From Thermotoga petrophila RKU-1 (GTDB lineage Bacteria > Thermotogota > Thermotogae > Thermotogales > Thermotogaceae): DNA of 64,000 bases. Positions 11,876-28,860 of this stretch are shown in pieces. The stretch lies in NCBI RefSeq assembly GCF_000016785.1, contig NC_009486.1:620001-684000 (forward strand). Reading direction: 5' to 3'. The notes beneath the pieces were generated by a model. That model ran no database searches and was not told where the DNA came from. It was given only the letters and a program-made list of their open reading frames with translations. Positions within the stretch are counted from its first letter, which is position 1. Each line of letters opens with the position of its first letter. The position numbers were made by a program, and so were the translations under genes.

Positions 11876-13330
11876 TTACTCCAATTCTACCTCAATCACA
11901 CTGCAAGAGAATGGTTTAAACGTGTGTTCAAATTCGGTGTCAACGGTGATGGTTTCGGAGGTAATATCAACGACGTTCGGATTTTCCATGGTGTTTCTCG
12001 CGTTCACGTCCGGACCTGTGAGTGTATAAACGGTGGCTTTTTTCTGTCCCAGACCTTCCACTCTGATTGGAACCTTCAAAGCGTCTTCTTTCCTGTAGTT
12101 TACAACAGCGATGAAAAGTTTCTTGCCATCTTCTGAGATGGAAGCGGCGGCATCAAGGAACGGTGCGTTCTCGACAGAGAAAGGCATTTTGTTGATGAAC
12201 ATGACTCCTTCTATGTTGTAAGTCTCCGATTCAACATGGGTCTTGACAAGCTTTTCTCCGGAATGATTCACGATGAGTTCAAAAGCCTTGTAAACGGGTG
12301 TGAGAATGAGACCGTCTTTCTCGGTGTGTATAGCTCCAAGGGCGTTTACAAGCTGTGCGAGATTGGCAAGTGGGACTATGTCGCTCATCTTTTGAAGAAG
12401 TACAAGCACTCCACATGCAAAGATACCATCTTTGAGATCGTAAGGTTCTTCGAGCTTGTTATCGGACACTCTGTACCATACGTTCCATTCATCAAGGGCG
12501 ATTTTGACACCTCTCTTTCTAGCAGTATCCACCATATCAATGAGCTTTTTCACTCCGATGAGTCTTTCTTTGAGAAGGTAAACCGTGGAAACTGTTTCGT
12601 AGTAATCCTCGGACCCTGTGTAGAAATGGTAGGATATGAAGTCAATCACATCACCTGCTTCTTGAAGAACCCTGAGATTCCATATAGGGTCGTCACAGCC
12701 CACGGCGATCGCTTTAATTGTAGGATCGAAAACCTTCATCCATTTCGTGTATTCTTTGGCGGCTCTTGCGTATTCGTCCGCCGTCATGTGGCCTACCTGC
12801 CATTCCCCGTACATCTCGTTGCCTATTCCCCAGAACTTTACGTTGTAAGGTTCTGGATGACCGTACTTTCTTCTGAGTTGAGCGTAGTAGGTATTACCCT
12901 TTCCATTGCAGTATTCAAGCCAGTGGAGAGCTTCGTCGAGTGTTCCAGTTCCCATGTTTATACTGATGTAAGGTTCTGCTCCTATCTCACGACAGTACTC
13001 AATGAATTCGTCCGTTCCAAATCTATTCGTCTCTTCCTGTTGCCAGGCGAGATCGAACCTGACAGGCCTCTGATCTTTGGGACCTATTCCGTCTTCCCAG
13101 TGGTAGTTCGACACAAAGTTTCCACCGGGCCATCTCAAGTTCGGAACTTTTATCCTCTTTACAGCCTCCAGAACGTCCTTTCTGAAACCCCTTTCATCGG
13201 AGAGCGGAGAACCTTCTTCATAAATTCCGCCGTAGATACACCTTCCCAGATGTTCCGTGAAATGACCGTAGATGTGTCTACTAATCGGCTTGACAACTTT
13301 TTTTGGATCAACCACTATCCTGTAGGACAT
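11876..13330 (-). CDS. abfA: Cytoplasmic alpha-L-arabinofuranosidase, GH51
   Basis: Releases terminal arabinofuranose from arabino-oligosaccharides after uptake. With the ATG at 13330 (9 nt after GAGGAGG) the protein is 484 residues. The acid/base glutamate lies in FWGIGNEMYG and the nucleophile in IALDEWNVW. Choosing this start puts a conserved glutamate (HIYGHFTEHLG) at residue 26, the numbering I recall for the T. maritima enzyme. There is no signal peptide, in contrast with the second GH51 at 15786-17690. It lies 14 nt after the clan GH-A gene and 28 nt before galM. Confidence 0.94.
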   Translation of the reverse strand: MSYRIVVDPKKVVKPISRHIYGHFTEHLGRCIYGGIYEEGSPLSDERGFRKDVLEAVKRIKVPNLRWPGGNFVSNYHWEDGIGPKDQRPVRFDLAWQQEETNRFGTDEFIEYCREIGAEPYISINMGTGTLDEALHWLEYCNGKGNTYYAQLRRKYGHPEPYNVKFWGIGNEMYGEWQVGHMTADEYARAAKEYTKWMKVFDPTIKAIAVGCDDPIWNLRVLQEAGDVIDFISYHFYTGSEDYYETVSTVYLLKERLIGVKKLIDMVDTARKRGVKIALDEWNVWYRVSDNKLEEPYDLKDGIFACGVLVLLQKMSDIVPLANLAQLVNALGAIHTEKDGLILTPVYKAFELIVNHSGEKLVKTHVESETYNIEGVMFINKMPFSVENAPFLDAAASISEDGKKLFIAVVNYRKEDALKVPIRVEGLGQKKATVYTLTGPDVNARNTMENPNVVDITSETITVDTEFEHTFKPFSCSVIEVELE

Positions 13331-13344
13331 ACTCTTTTCCCTCC

Positions 13345-15786
13345 TCACTTCACAAAAGTTGGTGTTATAGAAATACAGTCTACATTGGGTCCATAAACAG
13401 ACACATAAGCAGGTGAAACTTCAGTGTTTGGATTTTCAAATCTCAAAGTATGAACACCTTTTTCAAGATAGAGGTACAGAATCCTTGTGGAAAAGCCGTC
13501 CATTCCTCCGGTATACCTGAAAAAGAGATCCCTTTCTTCCCCATCGATGATCAATCTACAGTACCTGTCCACCACGTTGAGGTTATAAGCATGAGTCCCC
13601 AGCGTTTCCTCGTTACTGTAGCGAATTACGAGAGAGTAATAATTACCTTCAGGTACTTCGAACCGTATTTCAAGAGCATTTTCTTTTCCTCTTCCAATAC
13701 CAGCGACAAACTTACCGGATGAAGCATACTCAGAATTCTCCACGCGTGTATTTCCTGTTAGTGTACCTTCTTCTGCTTCATAGGTTTTCACGTCCTTTTC
13801 CACTTTCTCGAAAGAAATAGAACCCAAAACGATCGCATTATCAGAAGGATTTCTCAGCCTTAATAGATTCACACCTTTTTGAAGAAAAACGGTGAACTGA
13901 TTGCTCGTTACTTTCTCTCTGGCTACTCTGTTGATTTCTACTTCCAATTCTCTGATTGCATCATTGTTCAGCTTCACAGAATAATAACCATCGTTCTCCA
14001 CTACCACAAAAAACTCGACTTCATCGTTTCTTTTCAGAGTGATCTTTTCGCTATCGAGAAAACCATCCTTGGTGGTCAGGTAATCACATATCAGGAACTT
14101 TTGCTCTTTCGGATAAAGTCTTAACCCCACGCGATCAACACCAACACTCTGAGAACCACTTTCTCTGGATATTTTCACTGTATTCATCCCTTTTTTAAGC
14201 CAAACAGGTATTTCAACTTTTCCAACGTAACTTCCAGAGAGCGTAGGAGGAAAAATCACTTCAAAAGTTTCGTCATTTATCTCCAGTTTGTGTTTTACAG
14301 ACTTAGCATTACCGTTCAGGTACCATATCTCGAGGAGATACAAACTATCTTTTGGTACTTCAACCTTGAAGGAAAGAGCACTCTTAGTATTATCAAGAAA
14401 CACCACTTTTTCTCCAGAATAAGGTGGATTGTTTCCTCCTCCATGGATCTCTACCGTACAGTTTTCTAAGAAAGCATTTTCAGCCTCTTGTCTCCACTTC
14501 CATACAGACTGGTAGATCTGTCTGGAACCTTCATCTTTCCTTACCAGGATAAGATAAGCAGACATTTCACTCAAATTCTGGAGTTTTAAAGAGAATCCTC
14601 CATTGAGAACCTCGGTGTAACCTTTTTCCAGAAGATCTGGTGAAATGTAGATACCTGTGTAACCAGACCATTCGATCTCCCAGACTTCGTAATAAACCCT
14701 TTCTTTGAATGGAGTGTTCCTGAACGTGAGAGTGAGTTCTTCCTGATCATCTCCTCCCAGGAGAACTTTCAAAGTCTTCGTGTTTCGATCGTACACAGCC
14801 AGTGTAGAAATGGAAGTATAACTTGGTGTTGCTGAAACCAGTTCTCCAGACATGTTCACATATTCTCTGAACAACCACCATGCACTATTTGGTACATTCC
14901 CTTCTACGAGCCCCGAAAAGTTACCCGCAGCATGCCAGTAAGCAAGGCATCCATCAACCTTCGATTGTTCAAATCTTGCAAGCCATTTCATAAGCCTTCC
15001 TGGAACGGATAGTTCTTTTCCAAGGGCATATTCGTTTATACAGATGGGAAGAGATCTGATGCCAAGCTCTTTTTCAATTTTTCGGAAATCCTGGTAATAA
15101 GCGTGTCCTGCTTCTGCGTCCATAAGATTCAGTTCATGCCATGTGATCAGATCAGGAAGACAATTCTCTTGGAGACAGAATTCGAAGAATTTCTTCATGA
15201 ATCTCGAGTTGTAAGTAGTTGTATTCGGACCTGCTATCTTCGCACTCGGTGCTACTTCTTTTATCGTATTGTAGACGGCCTTCCAGGCTGTGAAGAACTC
15301 CTTCATCCTTTTAGAGGACCAGAAAAGACCTCCATACCAGATCGCATCAGGTTCATTGAAAGGAACGTAAACAATCTTATCTCTGTACGGTAGCATCTCT
15401 AAAATTCGTACAGACTCCCTTACTTTCTCGAGGTAATCATCTGGCACATAATCCCTGTTGTTGTCAGGATTTTTTTCATATGGCCAATTTAGGTAAATAT
15501 CCTGAAGATAAACCTGGAGGTATTCTCCCCCTGCCTTTACAAAGCTCTCCATGACCCTGAAAGCATCAGCACCGGGATGCTGTAAACCATACGGAGGTTT
15601 CTGGTTCACCGTCCTTACCCTTATAGGTACCAGAGAGATGACAGAAGGAACATCGGGTTCGGAAAGGGCATAGTGGGCACCAACCGCTCCAAAGCCAAGG
15701 GGCCCATTTGTTCGAGAAAGATCGAAAACGAGTTCATCAGCAAAAACCAGCGTGGAAAAACAAAGTATCAACATCAACCACCTCAT
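13345..15786 (-). CDS. Secreted clan GH-A glycoside hydrolase with C-terminal CBM35-like modules
   Basis: An 813-residue protein with an N-terminal signal peptide ending near residue 16 (TLVFADE). Residues 20-300 look like a GH-A (beta/alpha)8 barrel. The likely acid/base is Glu145 in VYVPFNEPDAIWYGG and the nucleophile Glu252 in PICINEYALGK, 107 residues apart as usual in this clan. A beta domain follows to about residue 430. Three beta-sandwich regions then follow; the last begins YEAEEGTLTG, a CBM35 hallmark. I cannot assign a CAZy family. It overlaps the secreted GH51 stop by 1 nt (TAATG), so it is co-expressed with arabinan hydrolysis genes. Activity on an arabinan or pectin side chain is inferred. 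Confidence 0.75.
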   Translation of the reverse strand: MRWLMLILCFSTLVFADELVFDLSRTNGPLGFGAVGAHYALSEPDVPSVISLVPIRVRTVNQKPPYGLQHPGADAFRVMESFVKAGGEYLQVYLQDIYLNWPYEKNPDNNRDYVPDDYLEKVRESVRILEMLPYRDKIVYVPFNEPDAIWYGGLFWSSKRMKEFFTAWKAVYNTIKEVAPSAKIAGPNTTTYNSRFMKKFFEFCLQENCLPDLITWHELNLMDAEAGHAYYQDFRKIEKELGIRSLPICINEYALGKELSVPGRLMKWLARFEQSKVDGCLAYWHAAGNFSGLVEGNVPNSAWWLFREYVNMSGELVSATPSYTSISTLAVYDRNTKTLKVLLGGDDQEELTLTFRNTPFKERVYYEVWEIEWSGYTGIYISPDLLEKGYTEVLNGGFSLKLQNLSEMSAYLILVRKDEGSRQIYQSVWKWRQEAENAFLENCTVEIHGGGNNPPYSGEKVVFLDNTKSALSFKVEVPKDSLYLLEIWYLNGNAKSVKHKLEINDETFEVIFPPTLSGSYVGKVEIPVWLKKGMNTVKISRESGSQSVGVDRVGLRLYPKEQKFLICDYLTTKDGFLDSEKITLKRNDEVEFFVVVENDGYYSVKLNNDAIRELEVEINRVAREKVTSNQFTVFLQKGVNLLRLRNPSDNAIVLGSISFEKVEKDVKTYEAEEGTLTGNTRVENSEYASSGKFVAGIGRGKENALEIRFEVPEGNYYSLVIRYSNEETLGTHAYNLNVVDRYCRLIIDGEERDLFFRYTGGMDGFSTRILYLYLEKGVHTLRFENPNTEVSPAYVSVYGPNVDCISITPTFVK

Positions 15787-17690
15787 TATCTCACCTTCAA
15801 TCTCAAAACCGTCACTGTGTAAGCTTTAAAGGTGTATTCAAAGGAAGTGTTGAGACCGGTTATTATTCTTTCTTTTGGAACGATCTTTAGTTCATCGAAA
15901 CTGTTTTCATCCTTTGGGCCACCACTGATGAGAATCTCCTTTCCATTTCCTTCGAGCCCAATTCCCTGAATTTCCAGACGAACGGTCCTATCTTCAGGCC
16001 AGGGATTGACAACTTTTATGATCAATTCCTTAGATTTTTCATCGTACGTTACTACATGATAGAGATGTTTGTATCTGTAGCCGAACATCCTGTACTCTTC
16101 GTTGGTGAGTTCGGAGTGAATCACCACATCTCCTCTGTTCTCAGCGAAAACTCTCTGGACATAGTAACTCGGTGTACCGAAAACCCTGTATCCATCGAAC
16201 CAGATCAGATCCGGTACCCACTGAGACCAGCCCACTCTGTTGAAGAGGGGAGCGTAGGAAGCCATTATGACAACATCGGAATTCCTCTCGACTCCTGTAA
16301 GAAAAGCTGCTTCAGCGAGTGCTGCCTGCCAGTTGTTTCTCTTTCCATCTGTATGCGCCGCGTACTCTCCAAGCATAACTTTCGGACCGTTTCTGTCATA
16401 TCTGTTGTATCTATCAGTGTTTGCCAGCATCCATTCCGGTGAGGCATAGATGTGCTCGTCGAAGATTTCCACGTTGTTTTCCCTTGCCCAGCGCCACGCC
16501 TGTCTGAAATCGGTTCCTTCGTAGGAAGGCGGTCCGCTGAATATGATCTTTACATCGGGATATCTTTTTTTTATCGCTTCTCTGAACTTTTCGAAATTCT
16601 CCCAGTATCTTGGCCCCCAGTTTTCATTACCAACACCAATGTATTTCACGTTGAAGGGTTCTGGATGACCAAGAGACGCTCTGACACCTCCCCAGTACGT
16701 GTCTGTTGCATCGTTGGCAAACTCGAGGAAATCTAGAACGTCTTGAATCCATTCTTTGAGCTCTTCTTCGGAAGCGTATTCCGGTGATTCTATCTGGAAA
16801 GATATACCAGGATTGAATATAGGAACAGGTTCTGCTTCCAGTCTTTCACAGAGGAGCAAATACTCGTAAAAACCGATACCAAGTGTCTGATAGTATCCCC
16901 AGAAATTCCACTTTGTCTTCCTCTGTTCAACTGATCCAATGCTCTCTTTCCATCGGTACGCGTTCTCCAGGGTGTTACCCTGAACCAGACATCCTCCCGG
17001 AAACCTTATAAAACCTGGCTTTAGATCCTCGAGCATTCTCAAAAGATCTTCTCTCATGCCGTTCCAGTTCTTTCTGGGCATCAGAGAAACCATGTCGATT
17101 CTGAGGGTTCCACTGCCCAGAATGGAAATCGAAAGTCTCGAGTTGGTGGATGTCTTTGTGGGAATGAGATTCAACATGTACTTTTTCCAGCCACCAGCCG
17201 GTTGATGAAGCAAAACATTCCCTGAAGCCAGAACTTCGTTGTCATCAGTGATCAAAGCGGTGATCGTTCCTGTGAAATCACCACTGAGATAGGTGGAGAA
17301 GGTGTATTCCTGACCCTGAAACACCACAATTCCACCGTATCCCAGGTTCGTGAGAGTCGCTCTATCTGTTTCGGGAAATTTCAATTCAAAATAATGAGTG
17401 TTGTTTTCGTTGAGAGGATACGTTTCTTCTATGGAAGATTTCACAGAATCTCCTCTTTCGATCTGCCACCCTTCGTACTTTCTCGTTTTCTGCTCAAACG
17501 ATCTGTTTCTCACAAGTTCTACGTAAAGTCCTCCATCGACTGCGTGATTTATATCTTCGAAAAATATTCCATGAAATGTCTCTGGAATTTCCGGCCCCTG
17601 CCGAGAAAAGTCAATCCTCAACACATGTTGAACCTCTCCGACGAGGAGGACCGAAATTGTTAAAGTCAAAACAAACAGGAATCTTTTCAC
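15786..17690 (-). CDS. Secreted alpha-L-arabinofuranosidase, GH51 with inserted CBM-like domain
   Basis: Exo-acting arabinofuranosidase acting outside the cell membrane. Starting at GTG 17690, preceded by GAGGGGTGA, the protein is 634 residues and begins MKRFLFVLTLTISVLLVG, a clear signal peptide. The open frame starts earlier at 17720, but that would bury the signal. The N-terminal GIFFEDINHAVDGGLYVELV is typical of GH51. About 130 residues of beta-rich CBM4-like sequence follow before FIRFPGGC. The acid/base is Glu356 in GVGNENWG and the nucleophile Glu442 in MLGEYAAH. It belongs to the larger GH51 subtype and is not a duplicate of the cytoplasmic enzyme at 11876-13330. It follows the permease genes by 16 nt. 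Confidence 0.88.
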   Translation of the reverse strand: MKRFLFVLTLTISVLLVGEVQHVLRIDFSRQGPEIPETFHGIFFEDINHAVDGGLYVELVRNRSFEQKTRKYEGWQIERGDSVKSSIEETYPLNENNTHYFELKFPETDRATLTNLGYGGIVVFQGQEYTFSTYLSGDFTGTITALITDDNEVLASGNVLLHQPAGGWKKYMLNLIPTKTSTNSRLSISILGSGTLRIDMVSLMPRKNWNGMREDLLRMLEDLKPGFIRFPGGCLVQGNTLENAYRWKESIGSVEQRKTKWNFWGYYQTLGIGFYEYLLLCERLEAEPVPIFNPGISFQIESPEYASEEELKEWIQDVLDFLEFANDATDTYWGGVRASLGHPEPFNVKYIGVGNENWGPRYWENFEKFREAIKKRYPDVKIIFSGPPSYEGTDFRQAWRWARENNVEIFDEHIYASPEWMLANTDRYNRYDRNGPKVMLGEYAAHTDGKRNNWQAALAEAAFLTGVERNSDVVIMASYAPLFNRVGWSQWVPDLIWFDGYRVFGTPSYYVQRVFAENRGDVVIHSELTNEEYRMFGYRYKHLYHVVTYDEKSKELIIKVVNPWPEDRTVRLEIQGIGLEGNGKEILISGGPKDENSFDELKIVPKERIITGLNTSFEYTFKAYTVTVLRLKVR

Positions 17691-17706
17691 TTTCTCACCC
17701 CTCAAA

Positions 17707-26224: not shown

Positions 26225-26973
26225 TCATCGTGAGGAAATATCTTTTTATCGCTATCCTGGTACTTTCATCTGTGATCGCTGTATCAGAGGATATCAATGA
26301 AGGACTGGTAGCATACTATCCGTTCGATGGAGATTTAAAAGACAAAACAGGAAATTTCGAAGAAGGGTATCTCGTTGGAAATAGGATAAATGTTCCGGCA
26401 CTTGGAAATCCCAAGTTTGGTGAAGGAGTGGTAGGACAAGCTTTGGTCTTCGATGGAAAAAAGGGCGTTGTTCTGGGGGATGATCTCATAACCGATTACG
26501 ACTATTCTGTTTCTTTCTGGCTCAAAATCGAAGATTTCACACAACATACCACTACATTCTTTGGATGTTATATAGACGAAGAAAACTACTTCCACTGGTT
26601 GAGTTTTGTGCCGTATGGCTGGAACAATGGAACCCTTCTGTGGGCCAGAGATGACAGGAAAAATATCTGGTTCGATGGAATTCCTCCATTCAATCTAGAA
26701 AAAGACAGGTGGTATCACGTTGTAATAGTCGTAGACAAAGGAAAAGCACACATGTTCGTAGACGGAAAGGAAGTGCCTCTGAAAGTACAGATCAACGGAC
26801 AACCTGATCCCAATGGACTGGTACCAGACGTGTTCTCTGTGGGACCTGGTGGAGTATTCTCACTGGGTGTAAATTTCTGGGATCCACCTTTCAAAGGAAT
26901 GATAGACGAATTGAGAATCTACGATCGGCCATTGACAGCGGAAGAGGTAAAGGAACTTTTCCAGAAAAGATAA
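26221..26973 (+). CDS. Secreted LamG-domain protein (paralogue 4), last gene of operon
   Basis: A 250-residue protein with a signal peptide of about 21 residues ending VIAVSED, then one LamG domain with LVAYYPFDGDLKDKTG, DLITDYDYSVSFWL, WYHVVIVVDKG and GMIDELRIYDRPLTAEEV. It is closest to paralogue 1: both share FFG-Y-D-H-W-SFVP-WNNGT-LWARDD, likely part of the ligand face. The start is GTG at 26230 or ATC-frame GTG codons near 26221; the 26221 start overlaps the previous stop by 4 nt. A strong terminator follows directly. The conserved aromatic residues in WNNGTLLWARDD are reasonable candidates for sugar stacking. Confidence 0.78.
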   Translation: MIIVRKYLFIAILVLSSVIAVSEDINEGLVAYYPFDGDLKDKTGNFEEGYLVGNRINVPALGNPKFGEGVVGQALVFDGKKGVVLGDDLITDYDYSVSFWLKIEDFTQHTTTFFGCYIDEENYFHWLSFVPYGWNNGTLLWARDDRKNIWFDGIPPFNLEKDRWYHVVIVVDKGKAHMFVDGKEVPLKVQINGQPDPNGLVPDVFSVGPGGVFSLGVNFWDPPFKGMIDELRIYDRPLTAEEVKELFQKR

Positions 26974-27000
26974 AAGAGCCCCTGCTGGGGCTCTTTTTCA
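26972..27000. terminator. Bidirectional terminator between the LamG operon and the GH127 gene
   Basis: AAAAGAGCCCC-tgct-GGGGCTCTTTTT forms a strong 11-bp stem with a T-run on both strands. It separates converging genes and overlaps the stop of the GH127 gene. Confidence 0.9.
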
Positions 27001-28860
27001 TTTCTTCAACCACACCGCCATAGGACCCGGTTCTCTGTTAGCCCACATGTGATAAGGAACGAGAGTGAACTCTACTGTCTTTTTCCTGGCTTCAGTCAGC
27101 CTCCTGTACAGTTTCCCCTCCCACTCAGAAACGTCCAATGCTCTTCCAGTCCCTTTGAGGAAAACGGCCTCTCTGTCCAGTATCTTCCCTTTTTCTTCTT
27201 TCAGGTTCTCCGAATTCAGAACCAGTGTCCAAACATGAAAATCCGGGTTATCTGCTTGTTCTATACAGTAGACAACGGGGCCTCTTCTCACTGCAACCTT
27301 TTCAAGGTTGTCTCTCACGAAGGGATGTGCTTCGATGAACTCCACTTTCATAGGAAGTGAGAGTTCCACCGTGTGTTTTCCTTTCCAGCTCTGGCTCAAT
27401 TTCACATAGCCGTTCTGCGGATTTGCTGTCACCGTTTTTCCGTCCACCCTGAGAACAAAATCATCTGCCCAGGAAGGAATCCTGAGAGATATGGAGAACG
27501 GTTCTTCAATGTCCGTTTCAACGGTGAAGGTCACTTCCCCACTCCATGGATAGTCCGTTTCCTGTTCTATCTCCACAACTGAGTTCTTGAAATTCAGCTT
27601 CGATGTGCTTTTCTCGTACAGATGAACCTGTACACCATCGTCCGATGTAGTGTACATGTATCCCGGGAAAGAAGCTATGAACCTGGCAAGGTTTGGTGGG
27701 CAACACGCACAGTCGAACCATTTCTGCCTTCTTGTTCTTCCGAGGTCTTCAAGTGGATTGAAGTAAAAGTAGTGCTTCCCATCGAGGGATATACCGGAGA
27801 GAAGTCCGTTGTACAGAACCTGTTCCATCACATCTGCAAATTTTCCCTCACCTGTTGCAAGAAGCATCCTGAAGTTCCACATGAAATTCGCTATTGAAGC
27901 ACAGGACTCAGCGTAAGATCTTCTGTTTGAAAGCTCGTACTCTTCTCCGAAGGATTCCCAGTCGTGCCTGGAGCCCGCTCCTCCTGTGATGTACATCTTC
28001 TTCGTCACAAAATTCTCCCAGAGTCTGTTGAGGGCCTGCCAGATCTTTTCATCACCTGTTTCAAGATAAAGATCGGTAGCACCAGAGCAGAGATACAGAG
28101 CTCTCACCGCATGGCCTGTGATCTCTTCTAGCTCCACAAAAGGTTTGTGATCGATGAAGTACTCTGGTCCAGGATTTCTTGGGACGCTGGCAAGCCCTTT
28201 TCCACGTGCGTAAATGAAGTACCTTGCAAGGTCCAAATATTTTCTGTCTCCTGTTTCTCTGTAGAGCTCTACAAGTGCCATTTCCACTTCAGGATGCCCC
28301 GGTGCCCCTTCTTTTTTTCCAGGACCGAAAGTGTTGCAAATGTGATCTGCGAATCTTTTTGCCACTTCAAAGAGGAAGTTCTTTCCTGTCACTCTTCTGT
28401 GCGCAACGGCAGCCTGAATCAAATGACCTGCGTTGTACAACTCATGATTCCACGCAAGGTTCGTCCATCGCTCTTTTTTTCTCTCTCCAGAAAGATAGGT
28501 TCCAAGGTAACCGTCTTCATCCTGAGCAGCTTTCACCTCTTCTATCACGCTGTCAAGGATCTTCTCCAGCTCCGGAAGTTTCCTGTTCGCTAAAGCGAAG
28601 GACACTGCCTCAGTCCATTTGTACACGTCTGTGTCGTCGAACGGAAAAAATGTTTTGTAAGATCCTTCCATCTTTCCAGCAGCGATTCTGAAGTTGTCGA
28701 GCCTTCCCGTGCTTTCCAGAAGATCGTACTGTGTGGGAAGAGTCACGTTGACGAGAGTTTCAATGTATTTACCCATGAATCCATCTACCTTCACAGAACC
28801 GACAGGTATCGTTTTGAGCTTTGCATAAGGGCTTTTGGAAACTTCTACGATTCTGGACAT
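26998..28860 (-). CDS. Beta-L-arabinofuranosidase, GH127 family
   Basis: A 620-residue cytoplasmic (no signal peptide) member of the former DUF1680 family, now GH127. Its best-known member is Bifidobacterium HypBA1, a zinc-cysteine enzyme removing beta-L-arabinofuranose. The cysteine cluster CACCPPN and the upstream YAESCASIANF, which supplies a glutamate and a cysteine, match the zinc and nucleophile residues of that enzyme. An alpha/alpha barrel with repeated helices fills the N-terminal two thirds and two beta domains the rest. It is monocistronic, with its own AraR box at 28901. The substrate may be beta-arabinofuranosyl or beta-arabinopyranosyl termini of plant glycans. Confidence 0.88.
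   Translation of the reverse strand: MSRIVEVSKSPYAKLKTIPVGSVKVDGFMGKYIETLVNVTLPTQYDLLESTGRLDNFRIAAGKMEGSYKTFFPFDDTDVYKWTEAVSFALANRKLPELEKILDSVIEEVKAAQDEDGYLGTYLSGERKKERWTNLAWNHELYNAGHLIQAAVAHRRVTGKNFLFEVAKRFADHICNTFGPGKKEGAPGHPEVEMALVELYRETGDRKYLDLARYFIYARGKGLASVPRNPGPEYFIDHKPFVELEEITGHAVRALYLCSGATDLYLETGDEKIWQALNRLWENFVTKKMYITGGAGSRHDWESFGEEYELSNRRSYAESCASIANFMWNFRMLLATGEGKFADVMEQVLYNGLLSGISLDGKHYFYFNPLEDLGRTRRQKWFDCACCPPNLARFIASFPGYMYTTSDDGVQVHLYEKSTSKLNFKNSVVEIEQETDYPWSGEVTFTVETDIEEPFSISLRIPSWADDFVLRVDGKTVTANPQNGYVKLSQSWKGKHTVELSLPMKVEFIEAHPFVRDNLEKVAVRRGPVVYCIEQADNPDFHVWTLVLNSENLKEEKGKILDREAVFLKGTGRALDVSEWEGKLYRRLTEARKKTVEFTLVPYHMWANREPGPMAVWLKK

Follow-up and report, generated by a model that had tools for sequence, protein, structure and literature searches.

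The closest described counterparts of the gene studied here, a minus-strand open reading frame at 13345-15786 of a 64-kb stretch of the Thermotoga petrophila RKU-1 genome (hereafter the window), are enzymes of glycoside hydrolase (GH) family 39 from Bifidobacterium and from a rumen fungus. In the Bifidobacterium enzymes the residue in the -2 subsite sets which disaccharide is released (PMC10688797). GAfase has Asn119 at this position and releases Gal-alpha-1,3-Ara, AAfase has Tyr116 and releases the arabinopyranose (Arap) disaccharide beta-L-Arap-(1->3)-L-Ara, and the single exchange N119Y converts the activity of GAfase to the AAfase type (PMC10688797). AAfase is composed of a signal peptide, a GH39 region and three beta-sandwich (galactose-binding-like) modules (PMC10688797). 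The rumen-fungus enzyme NF2152 is described in two reports as a GH39 alpha-L-(beta-1,2)-arabinofuranobiosidase (PMC10850190, PMC10688797); it acts on sugar-beet arabinan according to one of these (PMC10850190), and its residue at the counterpart position is Glu110 (PMC10688797). Judging from sequence comparisons, the product of the Thermotoga gene is probably an exo-alpha-L-arabinofuranosidase of this disaccharide-releasing GH39 type, secreted, thermophilic and retaining, which most likely removes arabinose-containing two-sugar caps from pectin side chains.

Family assignment and architecture of the GH39 protein

The open reading frame is intact, with no internal stops over its 813 amino acids, and the three strings quoted in the initial annotation (HYALSEPDVPS, QHPGADAFRV and YVPFNEPDAIWYGG) were all located in its translation. 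Since full-length orthologues with 55-76% identity are present in three other Thermotogota genomes (103 searched), the gene is not a chance open reading frame. The features of the gene and its product are as follows (CBM, carbohydrate-binding module).

13345-15786, minus strand: GH39 gene, 813 amino acids, ATG start; signal peptide, GH39 region and three CBM6/35-type modules
15739-15786, minus strand: putative signal peptide, residues 1-16 (MRWLMLILCFSTLVFA, followed by DE), read by eye
14536-15738, minus strand: GH39 catalytic barrel and beta-sandwich, residues 17-417 (5U22, 8UWT and PF01229 matches)
15508-15510, minus strand: Tyr93, -2 subsite specificity position, 8 residues N-terminal of Trp101
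15352-15354, minus strand: Glu145, predicted acid/base, NEP motif, aligned with NEP of 5U22
15031-15033, minus strand: Glu252, predicted nucleophile, NEY motif, aligned with INEY of 5U22
14107-14514, minus strand: CBM35/6-type module 1, residues 425-560 (profile matches to 5X7O, 3WNL, 2VZP, 2W3J and others)
13795-14106, minus strand: divergent CBM35-like module 2, residues 561-664 (2VZP, 6.4e-6)
13348-13794, minus strand: CBM35 module 3, residues 665-813 (2WZ8, C. thermocellum CBM35, 1e-20)

The initial annotation had recognised a barrel of clan GH-A, which agrees with the results below, but could name no GH family for it. The protein passes the Pfam GH39 model PF01229 with 28.8 bits against a curated cut-off of 26, also in the genome search, and a phmmer search against solved structures returned 5U22 (4.1e-42, aligned over residues 34-417) and, in the catalytic part, 8UWT (3.3e-36). 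We take 5U22 to be the NF2152 structure of Jones et al. 2017, from its molecule name N2152, and 8UWT, a 'possible beta-xylosidase diverged, family 5/39', to come from a C. acetobutylicum-like organism. GH39 membership is hard to see by eye because the Pfam match is limited to residues 143-237. An NCBIfam search of the protein gave no useful match. The annotation had named a strong match to a characterised family with a known substrate as evidence against its proposal of an activity not yet described, and GH39, with 5U22, is such a match; characterised GH39 enzymes of the same architecture, such as AAfase, exist (PMC10688797). The end-to-end alignment with 5U22 implies a (beta/alpha)8 barrel with a beta-sandwich; an AlphaFold model of the catalytic domain, made from a two-row alignment, reached a pLDDT (predicted local distance difference test) of 43 and was too poor for use.

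The Pfam GH39 model also includes classical beta-xylosidases and alpha-L-iduronidases, and the protein might for that reason be taken for one of these. However, the Pfam match is confined to the short segment given above, beta-xylosidase structures reached 4.5e-5 at best in single-sequence comparison versus 4.1e-42 for NF2152, and the operon serves arabinose, not xylose. With a profile built from 16 relatives the separation was 7.5e-124 for 5U22 versus 4.2e-10 for the top beta-xylosidase structure, and on profile scores the protein groups with NF2152, GAfase and AAfase-type enzymes over the beta-xylosidases. A beta-xylosidase or iduronidase identity, which we consider highly improbable, was rejected on the phmmer and profile scores.

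Glu145 and Glu252, proposed earlier as the catalytic pair, are both present and are invariant across the alignment of 16 relatives. By homology, Glu145 would be the acid/base (AAfase Glu190) and Glu252 the nucleophile (AAfase Glu315) (PMC10688797). The three CBM-like modules reported in the initial annotation were likewise recovered: modules 1 and 3 match CBM35/CBM6 structures, although the Pfam CBM_35 score of module 3 (23.3 bits) lies under the cut-off, and module 2 is a shorter, divergent copy (hhalign probability of 97% to modules 1 and 3) with 2VZP, a CBM35, as its top PDB profile match at 6.4e-6. The resulting layout of signal peptide, GH39 region and three modules is the same as that of AAfase.

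Residue 93 and the gene neighbourhoods of relatives

Tyr93 lies eight residues before Trp101, which equals the spacing between Tyr116 and Trp124 in AAfase, and the W-x-Y motif that follows eight and ten residues later (Trp101 and Tyr103) is also as in AAfase. Tyr93 is common to all four Thermotogota sequences and to both sequences from Clostridia, and favours a (1->3)-linked cap as released by AAfase. In GAfase, which shares with the Thermotoga system the GH39 family and an ABC importer and is known to release a disaccharide, the position is occupied by Asn instead of Tyr and the neighbouring gene encodes an alpha-galactosidase of GH36. The alignments further indicate that the residues around the -2 position (Tyr93, Asp96, Trp101 and Tyr103) follow the disaccharide-releasing enzymes. 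This argues against an ordinary exo-alpha-L-arabinofuranosidase that releases single arabinose from arabinan branches and has no working -2 subsite. Such an enzyme would suit a gene located between two GH51 genes of an arabinan operon, but release of single arabinose is already served by these two genes, and we consider this alternative improbable.

More distant full-length relatives were found in Clostridia (G469 and G640, a label guessed from gene content), in 35 out of 395 genomes of one actinobacterial class and on Streptomyces, Clavibacter and Sphingomonas plasmids, and no GH39 relative was found in the phage records searched. Neighbourhoods, mostly of 20 kb, were gathered for 45 relatives, most of them actinobacterial. 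A GH127 neighbour is present for 13 of the 16 relatives with Arg at position 93 versus 1 of the 29 others (Fisher 1e-7), whereas a GH36 neighbour is present for none of the 16 versus 17 of the 29; after collapse at 50% identity both associations have P = 0.015. The relatives with Asn, which fall on three different branches of the tree, are accompanied by an alpha-galactosidase-type GH36 in 3/3 cases (for L095 the GH36 matches 4FNQ at 3.3e-92), and those with Tyr (11/11) and Met (3/3) that have a GH36 carry another, Clavibacter-type GH36. The split in GH36 type between Asn and Tyr agrees with the GAfase/AAfase pair. In the actinobacterial surroundings (L071-L102) a GH31 gene is often present beside GH127, and one locus (L087:8260-15064) contains a tandem GH39 pair with Arg at the specificity position in both copies and GH127 adjacent.

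The same pattern bears on a product of the NF2152 type, that is, release of Araf-beta-1,2-Ara (Araf, arabinofuranose) from sugar-beet arabinan followed by cleavage by the intracellular GH127 at 26998-28860. NF2152 is the best-characterised structural relative and its substrate is sugar-beet arabinan (PMC10850190); it shares with the Thermotoga enzyme the GH39 barrel and beta-sandwich, the NEP and NEY glutamates and an arabinan-type context. The HypBA1-like GH127 is moreover the next glycosidase gene past the GH39-containing cassette and the only one of its family in the genome. On the other hand, 13 of the 14 relatives with a GH127 neighbour have Arg93, while NF2152 has Glu and the Thermotoga enzyme Tyr at this position, and the solved chain of NF2152 (423 amino acids) is without the tail of three CBMs. 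The tree places the Thermotoga enzyme outside a clade (support 100/100) of NF2152 and 8UWT, the latter having Arg at the specificity position and 29% identity over the catalytic part. We regard an NF2152-type arabinobiosidase as unlikely, and the AAfase-like reading of Tyr93 is preferred.

The arabinan cassette

The GH39 gene is flanked by araA, araB, araD, galM, GH51 and ABC genes, which confirms the arabinose operon setting proposed earlier. The secreted GH51 gene upstream shares one base with the GH39 ATG (TAATG), the overlap that the initial annotation had also noted, and four bases (GTGA) are shared between the GH39 stop and the start of the GH51 gene downstream; because of these overlaps the three genes are probably cotranslated. 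The surrounding features are given below.

11876-13348, minus strand: intracellular-type GH51 alpha-L-arabinofuranosidase (GH51i; Pfam)
13349-26997: arabinan cassette, 13.6 kb, between GH51i and GH127
15786-17720, minus strand: secreted GH51, CBM4_9-like plus GH51 (ASD1_dom 3.1e-60; MgGH51 6ZPS 1.1e-75)
17707-20776, minus strand: ABC importer made up of two permeases and, at 19529-20776, a solute-binding protein (PF00528, PF01547)
21028-22443, plus strand: GH43 endo-arabinanase, essentially PDB 4KC7 (E = 0, 1071 bits)
23236-24663, plus strand: second GH43, arabinanase-like (PF04616, PF16369)
22474-23226, 24671-25432, 25448-26224 and 26221-26973, plus strand: four LamG-only proteins of ~250 amino acids (PF13385)
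26998-28860, minus strand: GH127 beta-L-arabinofuranosidase, HypBA1-like, with the CACCP cysteine motif

The ABC importer genes lie upstream in the same gene run as GH39, and importer genes are adjacent to the AAfase gene as well. The first GH43 gene is divergent from this run. Interleaved with the two GH43 genes are those for the four LamG-only proteins, which have signal-like or lipoprotein-like N-termini and likely have a carbohydrate-binding role. A strong terminator-like hairpin at 26972-26997 marks the exact right edge of the cassette.

Comparison with other Thermotoga genomes separates GH127 from the GH39 gene. Two genomes, which we take to be T. maritima (G091, 1,860,725 bp) and T. neapolitana (G092, 1,884,562 bp) from their sizes, have GH127 and GH51i separated by 7 and 142 bases, respectively, and the cassette genes (GH39, secreted GH51, ABC importer, two GH43 and four LamG proteins) are absent from the junction. 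Two other genomes (G094 and G090) have largely the same block as the cassette. Since GH127 adjoins GH51 in T. maritima and T. neapolitana without any GH39, its closeness says little about the GH39 product, and the GH127 neighbour was dropped as support for an NF2152-type product. In a further Thermotoga genome (G096) the GH127 match (C112:22885-24018) covers residues 1-378 only and contains an internal TAA, which may mean that the gene is broken or that the assembly is at fault.

The Tyr-bearing relatives in Clostridia also sit amid GH43 arabinanases and GH51. At one clostridial locus (L036:6134-9574), a 1146-amino-acid open frame with a GH51s-like part adjoins GH39 and three GH43 genes. The cassette content is in line with the role in arabinan or pectin side-chain breakdown suggested by the initial annotation, which is upheld here.

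Candidate products and significance

In the proposed mechanism, a side chain of arabinan or arabinogalactan would enter the pocket with its capped non-reducing end, the cap sugar occupying subsite -2, close to Tyr93, and the alpha-L-Araf subsite -1. Glu145 would donate a proton to the leaving oxygen and Glu252 would make the glycosyl-enzyme intermediate, and the released product would be cap-(1->3)-L-arabinose, a (1->2) linkage being less likely. Outside the cell, the CBM35-type modules may anchor the enzyme to the wall, and the GH43 endo-arabinanases and the secreted GH51 would degrade the uncapped chain. The products would then be taken up by the neighbouring ABC importer and broken down to arabinose by exo-enzymes in the cytoplasm (GH51 and possibly GH127).

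Several observations weigh against this proposal. The catalytic part is only 28% identical to that of NF2152, and the likeness to AAfase and GAfase was judged from published residues and architecture. The AAfase gene adjoins GH36 and its substrate is arabinogalactan protein, whereas the Thermotoga gene has GH43 arabinanases and GH51 as neighbours and no GH36 of the AAfase type was found in the 64-kb window or in the genome, the single GH36 of which is GalA-like and lies beside a GH2-like gene. The arabinan neighbours and the AAfase-like Tyr93 point to different products, and the residue-93 code is a correlation among related, mostly actinobacterial genomes.

With these pointers in conflict, beta-L-Arap-(1->3)-Ara is our leading but tentative candidate for the product. 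beta-L-Araf-(1->3)-Ara is clearly less likely and beta-L-Araf-(1->2)-Ara less likely still; the remaining probability falls to other products or plain arabinose. The Araf-beta-1,3 linkage is present in sugar-beet and quinoa arabinan, and a 2024 paper stated that no enzyme releasing Araf-beta-1,3-Ara was known (PMC10850190). This disaccharide would fit both Tyr93, as a (1->3) product, and the arabinan neighbours with GH127, and the HypBA1-like GH127 is the only available enzyme for arabinofuranose in beta linkage. Tested GH127 enzymes of Bifidobacterium, however, gave no arabinose from such polysaccharides, and the beta-1,3-specific enzyme belongs to GH146. That the Tyr93 arabinan-cassette branch (Thermotogota, possibly Clostridia) releases Araf-beta-1,3-Ara, which the adjacent GH127 then splits, is a speculative and rather unlikely scheme.

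The GH39 family was already known, and what is new is its Thermotoga arabinan-cassette representative with Tyr93. An apparently unassigned hydrolase thereby becomes a testable GH39 enzyme of a hyperthermophile with defined candidate products. The pattern of residue 93 and neighbouring genes reaches far past the two bifidobacterial enzymes for which a one-residue switch was shown, and may provide a simple predictor of the capped arabinose disaccharide that is released by this group of GH39 enzymes. Should the Thermotoga enzyme release Araf-beta-1,3-Ara, it would be a heat-stable tool to map Araf-beta-1,3-Araf caps in pectin.
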